NCBI GenBank assembly: GCA_902509905.1
Contig: CABWZI010000007.1
Span: 1-64,000 of the forward strand
Length of the DNA stretch: 64,000 nt
Direction of reading: 5' to 3'
Source: an uncultured Gammaproteobacteria bacterium
Lineage (GTDB): Bacteria; Pseudomonadota; Gammaproteobacteria; PS1; Pseudothioglobaceae
The translations under genes and the position numbers were made by a program. Position 1 is the stretch's first letter, and every line of letters starts with the position of its first letter. Under the pieces are notes generated by a model. That model searched no databases. It saw only the letters and a list, made by a program, of their open reading frames with translations, and was not told the DNA's origin. This document shows, piece after piece, positions 3,939 to 18,024 of the stretch.

Positions 3939-4538
3939 TTAAAGATTATCAGCATTTTTTGATAAATACTCTGCGACACTCTGAGCACTCTCATTCATCC
4001 CATCATCGCCCTTGTTCCATCCAGCTGGACAGACTTCACCATTTTCAGTATGAAAATCAAGTGCATCAACCATTCTCAGCATTTCATCTACATTCCTACC
4101 TAATGGATGATCATTTACTACTTGGTGACGAACAACAAAATTCTCATCTACTAAAAAAGATGCTCTTAATGCTGTTCCTTCAGGGTGTTCAATTCCATAT
4201 GAGCTCATAATTGAGTGATTCATATCTGAAACTAATGGAAAGTCTATTGCTCCTATTCCTCCATCATTAATATTAGTATTTCGCCAAGCATTATGAGTGT
4301 GCTTAGAGTCTATTGAGACTCCAATAAGCATAGTATTTCTCTCATCAAAAGCTTTAACTCTTTTGTGATGAGCCAAAATCTCAGAAGGGCAAACAAATGT
4401 AAAGTCCAGTGGATAGAAAAAAAGTACTATTTTTCTCCCTTTGAATTTTGATAGTTGAAAGTCATCAACAATACTCCCATCAGCAAGAATAGCGGATGAA
4501 ATAAAGTCAGGTGCTTGTTTAGTAACCAATATGCTCAA
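3939..4538 (-). CDS. Typical 2-Cys peroxiredoxin (AhpC/Prx1 type)
   Basis: A 199-residue thiol peroxidase that reduces hydrogen peroxide and organic peroxides. The peroxidatic Cys is residue 50 in FTFVCPSEI and the resolving Cys is residue 170 in GEVCPAGW, the spacing of typical 2-Cys peroxiredoxins. A GGIG loop near residue 93 resembles the GGLG motif of overoxidation-sensitive enzymes, but the C-terminal YF motif is absent. The start is TTG: the Shine-Dalgarno sequence AGGAGAA lies about 5 bases upstream and there is no ATG nearby. The TTG overlaps the TGA of a small upstream frame (4535-4768). The Fur-box promoter and terminator at 4739-5019 lie upstream on the same strand, so read-through could link this gene to iron status. 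Confidence 0.93.
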   Translation of the reverse strand: MSILVTKQAPDFISSAILADGSIVDDFQLSKFKGRKIVLFFYPLDFTFVCPSEILAHHKRVKAFDERNTMLIGVSIDSKHTHNAWRNTNINDGGIGAIDFPLVSDMNHSIMSSYGIEHPEGTALRASFLVDENFVVRHQVVNDHPLGRNVDEMLRMVDALDFHTENGEVCPAGWNKGDDGMNESAQSVAEYLSKNADNL

Positions 4539-4768
4539 AGTATTCTCCTGTTTAATGTTCTCGGGCTTTTGTAATAGGAATCTAATTCTTGCTTAAAGTC
4601 ATTTTTCACTTGATCTAAGAGTATTTGACCAATAATTTTCTTTGGAATACCATGTTGCCTCATCGAAATAAAACTCAAACGATTGGCTTTCTTTAGTAAA
4701 TAGATTTTGTAGCTATACCAATATTTCATTTTTAGTTTAAAAAAAGCCCTATGGAAGGAGGAAGACAT
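4535..4768 (-). CDS. Hypothetical small basic protein upstream of peroxiredoxin (doubtful)
   Basis: An open frame of up to 77 codons that ends TGA inside the TTG start of the peroxiredoxin gene, the arrangement expected for translational coupling. The first ATG lies inside the 5' arm of the terminator hairpin at 4739-4773, so a real product more likely starts at Met14 (4729), giving 64 residues. The sequence is basic and helical (KKANRLSFISMRQHGIPKKI), vaguely like a RecX helical repeat, but I do not recognise the family. No good ribosome binding site precedes either ATG. It may be only a leader region of the peroxiredoxin mRNA. Confidence 0.3.
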   Translation of the reverse strand: MSSSFHRAFFKLKMKYWYSYKIYLLKKANRLSFISMRQHGIPKKIIGQILLDQVKNDFKQELDSYYKSPRTLNRRIL

Positions 4769-4773
4769 AGGGC
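4739..4773 (-). terminator. Intrinsic terminator with CCUCC-containing loop
   Basis: Perfect 8-bp stem GCCCTATG / CATAGGGC (4746-4753 with 4766-4773) around a 12-nt loop. On the minus strand it is followed by seven T (4739-4745), a complete Rho-independent terminator. On the plus strand no T-run follows. The only upstream minus-strand transcript it can end is the one starting near 4984. Confidence 0.8.
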
Positions 4774-4838
4774 CAATTAATTACAAATAGGGAGTTATTA
4801 AAGGAAGTAAATAACTATGAATGTAATTAAAATATCAC

Positions 4839-4955
4839 TTACTTAAAATCTCCTTTGATATTTCGCTTCATACTAGTTCGGAGGGCTATTCTGAAGCAGT
4901 TGAAATGATCAAAAATAAAACGAAGATTGAGGAAGTCAGTTTTATAAATAATCAT
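4839..4955 (-). CDS. Possible 38-residue small protein inside the Fur-regulated transcript (doubtful)
   Basis: An ATG-initiated frame (start codon 4953-4955) with AAAGG about 7 bases upstream and a TAA stop at 4839-4841, lying wholly inside the candidate sRNA. The product is small and basic at the C-terminus (ending TSMKRNIKGDFK), with one Cys. It resembles no family I know. It overlaps the imperfect hairpin with the CCCUCC loop, so it could be a chance frame in an sRNA, the protein part of a dual-function RNA, or the only real product of the unit. Confidence 0.25.
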   Translation of the reverse strand: MIIYKTDFLNLRFIFDHFNCFRIALRTSMKRNIKGDFK

Positions 4956-4990
4956 TTCAAACCTTTAAAAAATTTAATGTTTTCAATTTA

Positions 4991-5019
4991 ATGATAATGA
5001 TACTCATTCTCATTTGCAA
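4991..5019 (-). promoter_or_regulatory. Minus-strand promoter overlapped by a Fur box
   Basis: GATAATGATACTCATTCTC at 4993-5011 matches the 19-bp Fur consensus at 17 positions. Read on the minus strand, TTGCAA (5014-5019) and TATCAT (4991-4996) form -35 and -10 boxes with a 17-bp spacer, so Fur bound here would cover the whole spacer and the -10 box. The plus-strand CDF metal exporter gene starts about 115 bp to the right and could share the site. A fur gene of the E. coli type is present at 17617-18024. Confidence 0.75.
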
Positions 5020-5125
5020 TTGCAAGTCTTTTTTAAAAAAAAATTGTAATATTTACTATGGAGTTCAAAAATCGTAATAACATAACCTAAAATATAACTA
5101 TAAAACTTTCAATAATTAGTACTGA

Positions 5126-6262
5126 ATGGATTTAGGAAAACGCAGCAAGGAAAGTCAAAAAGTAACCATTGTTGGGGCTTCAATTGATTTATTTCTTTCG
5201 ATCATAAAAATTGTATTGGGTTACATTGGACAATCAAGCGCTCTAATTGCTGATGGAATTCACTCTTTTTCTGATTTGCTCACTGACTGGGTAACCTGGT
5301 ATGCTTCAAAACTTTCTGGTGACGCGCCAGACGACGATCATCCTTATGGTCATGAGCGATTTGAAACTGTAGCAACGCTTGGTATCAGTATTTTTCTAGC
5401 TATTGTTGGAACTATAATTATATTTGATGGCTTTGAACGCTTCTCAAATCCTAATGAGCTTCAATATGGCAACTGGTTAATTGCTGCTGCTGCTTTATCT
5501 ATATTGAGTAAAGAAGGGCTTTATTGGTATACACTTAAAGTTTCAAAAAATATAAAATCTGACCTTCTTAGGGCAAACGCTTGGCATCACAGAACGGATG
5601 CCTTATCCTCTATAGTTGTAGTTATAGGAATCATTGGTGCTGTTAACGGATACTCTTTCCTAGATAGTGTAGCCGCTATGATTGTTGGAGTATTAATCAT
5701 ATATATTGGATGGCAACTTGGCTTCGAAGCCACTAAGGAATTAGTTGATACGTCAATCGATCAAGAAGATATAAAAGCGCTGCGTTTAGCTTTGTCTGAG
5801 ATTAAAGGTGTCAAAAGTGTTCATACTCTCAGAACAAGAAAGGTTGGCCATAAAAAGTCTGCCGATGTCCATGTCCAGGTTAATCCTTTTTTGTCTGTTA
5901 GTGAGGGTCATATTATTAGTGTAAGTGTTGAGCGTGTTGCTAAAGAATGCATCGAAGAGCTTGATGACGTTACTGTACATATAGACCCAGAAAATGATGA
6001 AGAAAAAGAGGATGCACCTTATAAAGACTTACCTGAGCGTGCACAGGCTCTAAAAATTATTAGTCAATCTTTAAAACTTGAAAACTTAAATTTTGAAATT
6101 GAGAAAACACAGCTTCATTACTTGGACGGGGAAATATTGGTTGATTTTTACTTATCAATTGGTTATTTAAAAAATAAAACAACTGAACAGATTCAGTCAG
6201 AATTCAGTTCAGCTCTTGAAAAACTTCCAGGGTTTGGAGAAGTTAAGGTCTATTACAGCTAG
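5126..6262 (+). CDS. Cation diffusion facilitator (FieF/YiiP-like metal exporter) with extra C-terminal domain
   Basis: A 378-residue CDF transporter, an inner-membrane proton antiporter for Zn(II), Fe(II) or similar divalent metals. About six hydrophobic segments occupy residues 12-205. The transport-site residues are visible as ADGIHSFSDLLTD (about 41-53) and HHRTDALSS (about 153-161). The cytoplasmic domain HVQVNPFLSVSEGHII binds metal in relatives. E. coli FieF is 300 residues; here some 85 extra residues follow HIDPENDEEKED, looking like a second small alpha/beta domain. A Fur box lies 115-133 bp upstream. No clear Shine-Dalgarno sequence precedes the ATG. Confidence 0.9.
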   Translation: MDLGKRSKESQKVTIVGASIDLFLSIIKIVLGYIGQSSALIADGIHSFSDLLTDWVTWYASKLSGDAPDDDHPYGHERFETVATLGISIFLAIVGTIIIFDGFERFSNPNELQYGNWLIAAAALSILSKEGLYWYTLKVSKNIKSDLLRANAWHHRTDALSSIVVVIGIIGAVNGYSFLDSVAAMIVGVLIIYIGWQLGFEATKELVDTSIDQEDIKALRLALSEIKGVKSVHTLRTRKVGHKKSADVHVQVNPFLSVSEGHIISVSVERVAKECIEELDDVTVHIDPENDEEKEDAPYKDLPERAQALKIISQSLKLENLNFEIEKTQLHYLDGEILVDFYLSIGYLKNKTTEQIQSEFSSALEKLPGFGEVKVYYS

Positions 6263-17616: not shown

Positions 17617-18024
17617 TTAATGACAATCCTTGCATAGGCCATAGAGATACAAAGAGTGGTCAGTTAACTCGAATCCATGTTTTTTTGCAATTTGAATCTG
17701 ATGCTGCTCAATCACATCATCTTGAAATTCAATAATCTTATTACATTTGACACAAACCAAGTGATCATGGTGATCGGCTCCACACAACTCATAAACTGCT
17801 TGATTGTTTTCAAAGTTTAATTTTTGCACAATGCCTGACTCTTCAAACTGCGATAGAACACGATAAATTGTCGCAACACCAACCTCTTCATTTTGCTCAA
17901 TCAGAACCCTATAAATATCCTCAGCACTGAGATGATGGCTTGGAGAGCTCTCAAGAACTTCTAAAATTTTGAGCCTTGGCAGGGTGACTTTTAGACCAGC
18001 ACTTTTTAAATCTTCTGCATCCAT
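17617..18024 (-). CDS. fur: Ferric uptake regulator Fur
   Basis: A 135-residue metal-dependent repressor. The N-terminal winged helix (AGLKVTLPRLKILEVLE, residues 9-25) and the dimer/metal domain match E. coli Fur much better than Zur. Metal ligands are visible: the HHDH cluster at about residues 85-88, Cys91 and Cys94 in HLVCVKCNK, and a second CXXC (Cys131, Cys134) at the extreme C-terminus. Divergent fur and bamE (omlA) is a classic gammaproteobacterial arrangement and supports Fur. A strong Fur box at 4993-5011 shows a likely target in the same window. Confidence 0.92.
   Translation of the reverse strand: MDAEDLKSAGLKVTLPRLKILEVLESSPSHHLSAEDIYRVLIEQNEEVGVATIYRVLSQFEESGIVQKLNFENNQAVYELCGADHHDHLVCVKCNKIIEFQDDVIEQHQIQIAKKHGFELTDHSLYLYGLCKDCH

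Follow-up and report, generated by a model that had tools for sequence, protein, structure and literature searches.

The window, that is, the whole stretch of 64,000 nucleotides analysed here, carries on its minus strand a predicted structured RNA that lies behind a Fur box, ends at an intrinsic terminator and is followed by the gene of a small basic protein. The neighbourhood runs from ruvC and the cation transporter through the RNA and the small gene to the peroxiredoxin and the helicase. The features of the locus, and the fur gene of the same window, are as follows:

3939–4538, minus strand: AhpC/1-Cys peroxiredoxin gene, its start overlapping the stop of the small gene
4535–4729, minus strand: small basic protein gene (64 aa, pI about 10), starting 10 nt past the terminator
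4739–4985, minus strand: structured RNA of ~247 nt, 5' end inferred, with orthologs in nine other genomes
4739–4774, minus strand: stem-loop 4, the intrinsic terminator, with loop UCUUCCUCCUUC at 4754–4765
4777–4830, minus strand: stem-loop 3, with stem UUAAUUAC/GUAAUUAA, containing ACUUCCUUU (4800–4808)
4850–4856, minus strand: AAAGGAG, invariant and Shine-Dalgarno-like, placed by the alignment in the loop of a UAUCA/UGAUA hairpin
4865–4897, minus strand: stem-loop 2, with loop CCCUCCGAA at 4877–4885
4900–4960, minus strand: stem-loop 1, with loop CUUCCUC at 4929–4935
4991–5025, minus strand: sigma-70-like promoter, with -35 TTGCAA at 5025 or 5019 and -10 TATCAT ending at 4997 or 4991
4993–5011, plus strand: Fur box GATAATGATACTCATTCTC, overlapping the promoter
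5126–6262, plus strand: divergent cation-efflux transporter gene (FieF-like)
17617–18024, minus strand: fur gene (PF01475, 2.9e-46)

A promoter overlapped by a Fur box matching at 17 of 19 positions, and a fur gene in the same window, had already been proposed from the sequence alone, and both were recovered. The box GATAATGATACTCATTCTC departs from the consensus GATAATGATAATCATTATC at two positions, while only 0.08 sites with three or fewer mismatches are expected by chance per 64 kb, and the 1.52 Mb genome holds no second site as good. By itself, the consensus promoter match is at chance level (4 found versus 3.6 expected); the TTGCA of the -35 element is conserved in every ortholog. The position of the Fur box at the promoter is also kept in all ten orthologs, with a weaker box in one of them (G008, four mismatches, counted by eye). 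The locus thus shows the conserved promoter Fur box that marks the class of Fur-regulated, iron-sparing small RNAs. Elsewhere in the genome, boxes with three mismatches occur at four places. Since two of these are next to a ferritin-like and a DUF4856 gene, respectively, the motif plausibly marks iron genes. The first is immediately upstream of the ferritin-like gene (L066, 1427 and 1501–1525), which suggests that iron storage is under direct Fur control, and a Fur-like box lies between the genes for an ABC ATPase and the DUF4856 protein (L065, 1501–1562). Fur boxes were also seen ahead of feoAB look-alikes in the genomes G076 and G004 (L011 and L022).

The minus strand from 4739 to 4984 folds at -51 kcal/mol (z = -3.77), and none of 200 shuffles folded as well. 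Across the ten orthologs, the RNA measures about 230–260 nt and retains its terminator, with z values of -3.7 to -7.1, all better than the shuffles. The terminator announced by the sequence-only reading is present at 4774–4739 and consists of GGCCCTATG, a 12 nt loop, CATAGGGC and T7; one terminator scan missed it because the loop exceeds 8. By its sequence, the locus therefore has the non-coding RNA and intrinsic terminator typical of iron-sparing small RNAs. Two exposed loops had been described earlier, and both are as described, but the total is four CU-rich loops. In the ten orthologs, these four motifs are unpaired at 0.71–1.00, compared with 0.35–0.45 for the whole RNA (0.80–0.98 for the loop of stem-loop 1), and their sequences are either invariant or still CU-rich. 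Each ortholog contains four to six 5-mers complementary to the Shine-Dalgarno sequence (anti-SD), versus 0.8–1.7 in shuffles. Accessible C-rich loops of this kind, complementary to Shine-Dalgarno sites, are what the IsrR and FsrA way of working calls for. The AAAGGAG motif could base-pair with the CUUCCUUU loop, or it may serve as a protein site, for example of the CsrA type (GGA).

The stems show the compensatory changes that had been suggested as a check. Pair-keeping changes on both sides were found in hairpin 2 of G007 (C-G to U-A) and in the terminator of G008, and an A-U to G-C exchange in stem-loop 3 occurs in 5 of 13 distinct rows. Four pairs of the terminator have changes on both sides. 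When four divergent paralogs were added, 5 of 17 pairs changed on both sides. We counted 13 double-change cells, a number that none of 500 shuffles reached (3.9 in shuffles), in a test favoured by the fact that its structure was drawn from the same sequences. Pairing is kept in 96.8% of the stem cells and drops to at most 45% when the partners are slid. Fur box, stems and loops are kept in the ten orthologs.

DNA and model searches retrieved RNA orthologs from ten members of the genus, including the genome of the window, and none from 321 other sampled Gammaproteobacteria. A pattern scan, which was limited to the form carrying one additional A, found the hairpin in two genomes named as members of the SUP05 cluster, to which the genome of the window also belongs. 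The RNA is retained in G020, where the adjacent transporter is lacking, and in G011, where the peroxiredoxin is missing from this place. In G031, the helicase, transporter and ruvC are kept, the RNA and the peroxiredoxin are missing, and the small gene is reduced to a remnant. No Rfam covariance model, including those of RyhB and PrrF, matched at its gathering score, which agrees with the earlier statement that no sequence match to RyhB or NrrF was seen. The GcvB model, whose gathering score is 42, reached 16.8 bits, a weak match that we regard, like the other Rfam matches, as unrelated.

Divergent paralogs of the RNA were detected in G015, G028 and G030. They have the same 3' architecture and a -35 element of TTGCAA or TTGCAT, without a Fur box and without a gene for the small basic protein; they keep CU-rich loops, and some hold few anti-SD 5-mers (one or two). 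Copies of this kind number two or three per genome in G015 and G028, and G030 has one strong copy (L054, L055, L059, L060 and L081 for the three genomes). Four further weak matches to model R1 (L056, L057, L058 and L061) lacked a Fur box and were dropped.

In nine of the ten orthologs, the small gene starts 10–30 nt past the terminator; in G008 the distance is 43 nt. Its products are 59–64 aa long (100 in G007, by frame extension) and carry a charge of +7 to +14. No significant match was found in Pfam, NCBIfam, PDB or Foldseek; the AlphaFold model consists of helices (pLDDT 84). A short N-terminal similarity to a 220-aa protein was taken as chance. As a separate promoter would have little space there, the small protein is most likely made by read-through of the terminator.

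Taken together, the sequence evidence makes it probable that the locus encodes a trans-acting RNA, repressed by Fur and independent of Hfq, which blocks ribosome-binding sites. Under iron scarcity, Fur would leave the promoter at 4991–5025 and the RNA of ~247 nt would be made, its transcription ending mostly at the terminator (4739). The four CU-rich loops would then pair with the Shine-Dalgarno regions of target mRNAs, most likely those of iron-using proteins, and block ribosome entry, sparing iron without Hfq or ProQ. Some polymerases would read through and yield the small basic protein, plus the peroxiredoxin where it is present. Target prediction with the loops at ribosome sites, proposed earlier as a check, did not separate the loops from controls: for 422 genes (~445 kb), duplex energies of the real loops were similar to those of reversed-loop controls, and extended loop-complement patterns were no more frequent than reversed ones. 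An IlvD/Edd-type dehydratase ranked second of the 422 genes, which is not significant. Besides these target results, points that count against the explanation as a whole are the small gene behind the RNA in every ortholog, for which a cis role would account equally, the paralogs devoid of a Fur box, the scarcity of anti-SD 5-mers in some of them and the weaker box of G008. The candidate put forward by the sequence-only reading, a Fur-controlled, lineage-specific RNA with anti-SD-like loops, thus stands as regards its conserved box, co-varying stems and lack of an Rfam family, while iron sparing in trans is a step that we still infer.

The main rival is a cis-acting leader, in which a 5' region under Fur control would attenuate transcription of the small basic gene, and of the peroxiredoxin, and would have no targets elsewhere. 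It would account for the small gene lying 10–43 nt past the terminator in 10 of 10 orthologs, and in other genera this gene again comes after a folded region and a Fur box. However, the paralogs dispense with both the Fur box and the small gene; an RNA of this kind is therefore bound to neither, which speaks for trans action. One of them, L059 in G015, ends against a convergent neighbouring gene, leaving no downstream gene on which it could act in cis. Moreover, the most constrained unpaired parts are the anti-SD loops, and no alternative antiterminator fold was recognised, although no systematic search was made. On balance, we consider the leader unlikely, though it deserves to be taken seriously.

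Known systems offer precedents for the preferred trans-acting RNA. IsrR of Staphylococcus is Fur-repressed and Hfq-independent, ends at an intrinsic terminator, pairs through C-rich regions in its stem-loops with Shine-Dalgarno sites and also operates in an AT-rich host (PMC9410917). It belongs to another phylum. The SUP05 RNA differs further in its four CU-rich loops and in the small protein gene behind it. FsrA of Bacillus subtilis is likewise Fur-repressed and places a C-rich motif at the ribosome sites of its targets, and the small basic proteins under Fur, FbpA/B/C, have been proposed as its chaperones (PMC7430163). FsrA differs in its length of 84 nt, and in the SUP05 locus the small basic gene lies directly behind the RNA. 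RyhB and PrrF are Fur-controlled RNAs of Gammaproteobacteria, as the SUP05 RNA appears to be, but they work with Hfq (PMC9410917), and the SUP05 RNA matches neither in Rfam. We found no Hfq match in five genomes of the genus, two of them single-contig and 99% complete, and no ProQ match in seven genomes, with positive controls that worked, so the host partner expected of a RyhB or PrrF relative was not found in the five. The lack of Hfq and ProQ matches fits an IsrR-like way of working (PMC9410917). The SUP05 RNA may thus work like IsrR and FsrA by logic, an analogy that makes no claim to family membership. RNAs of the LhrC type also have several redundant CU-rich loops and occur in multiple copies, as here; they differ in being Gram-positive and are not known to be iron-controlled.

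The comparison with FsrA and FbpA/B/C raises a second alternative, a dual cassette in which the trans-acting RNA would be assisted by the small basic protein as an RNA-binding partner of its own. In all orthologs, the Fur promoter of the RNA also precedes the gene of a basic protein (pI about 10), the model of this protein is helical, and neither Hfq nor ProQ was matched. Yet the protein has no fold or family match, and the RNA paralogs do without it; this partnership seems to us improbable. We can safely set aside a short mRNA whose 38-codon frame (4839–4955, minus strand) would encode a small iron-regulated protein, as this frame, although open with a shared start in six orthologs, is broken in four of ten, has a pN/pS of 0.65 versus 0.21 for the 64-codon gene at 4535–4729, and starts within the stem of hairpin 1; it was rejected as a gene. 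The earlier statement that about 246 nt of the gap hold no convincing gene is accordingly true of the RNA itself, while the rest of the gap contains that 64-codon gene. Besides this basic protein, 10–43 nt after the terminator, and two of the four loops, the sequence-only reading had overlooked the recurrence of the arrangement in other genera.

In other genera of the family, relatives of the small protein are encoded about 400–680 nt downstream of same-strand Fur boxes, and G059 has an additional, stronger box at -743. A Fur box comes first there, followed by an ORF of 25–31 aa, the folded region, the Cys-rich peptide, the small basic protein and, in most cases, an exported protein. This Fur-controlled operon of tiny genes was found at L162–L167 and L169. 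Its folded region spans 120–347 nt (z -2.4 to -7.2) and carries CU-rich tracts, of which only a part is exposed. The Cys-rich peptide has ~41–46 aa, but no frame for it was called in G039, and the one in G053 is longer. In G053, a transporter resembling that of the window lies divergently upstream (by eye). None of the tiny proteins tested gave significant family matches. In G076, the feoAB look-alikes mentioned above are preceded by a 24-aa ORF that resembles, by eye, the first tiny ORF of this operon. In the operon of the other genera, the hairpin nearest the small gene mostly lacks a long U-run, also judged by eye. Models R1 and R2, run on these genera with filters off, gave only weak matches; two of these, in G071, fell where expected (E 0.094 and 0.072). 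In our reading, the SUP05 RNA descends from the embedded region of the family's Fur-controlled small-protein operon, a descent that the sequence models do not prove. A bolder version, to which we give rather little credence, is that of a self-contained, Hfq-free iron cassette, in which one Fur promoter would serve a multi-loop anti-SD RNA and its own RNA-binding protein, and which would have arisen from the RNA embedded in that operon once a U-run was added to its last hairpin, turning it into a terminator.

In oxygen-poor waters, SUP05 bacteria play an important part in the oxidation of sulphur. A literature search, mostly without subscription papers, retrieved none joining SUP05, small RNA and Fur. 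The SUP05 RNA is a previously uncatalogued small RNA that is apparently on when iron is scarce, and it may represent a separately evolved way of saving iron. If the trans-acting reading is true, it would be an iron-sparing RNA in bacteria where neither Hfq nor ProQ was found, working by the C-rich-loop route of Gram-positive bacteria. It would thereby provide a concrete candidate for iron management in a genome-reduced marine bacterium, as well as a testable case of an operon-embedded RNA becoming a free-standing regulator.
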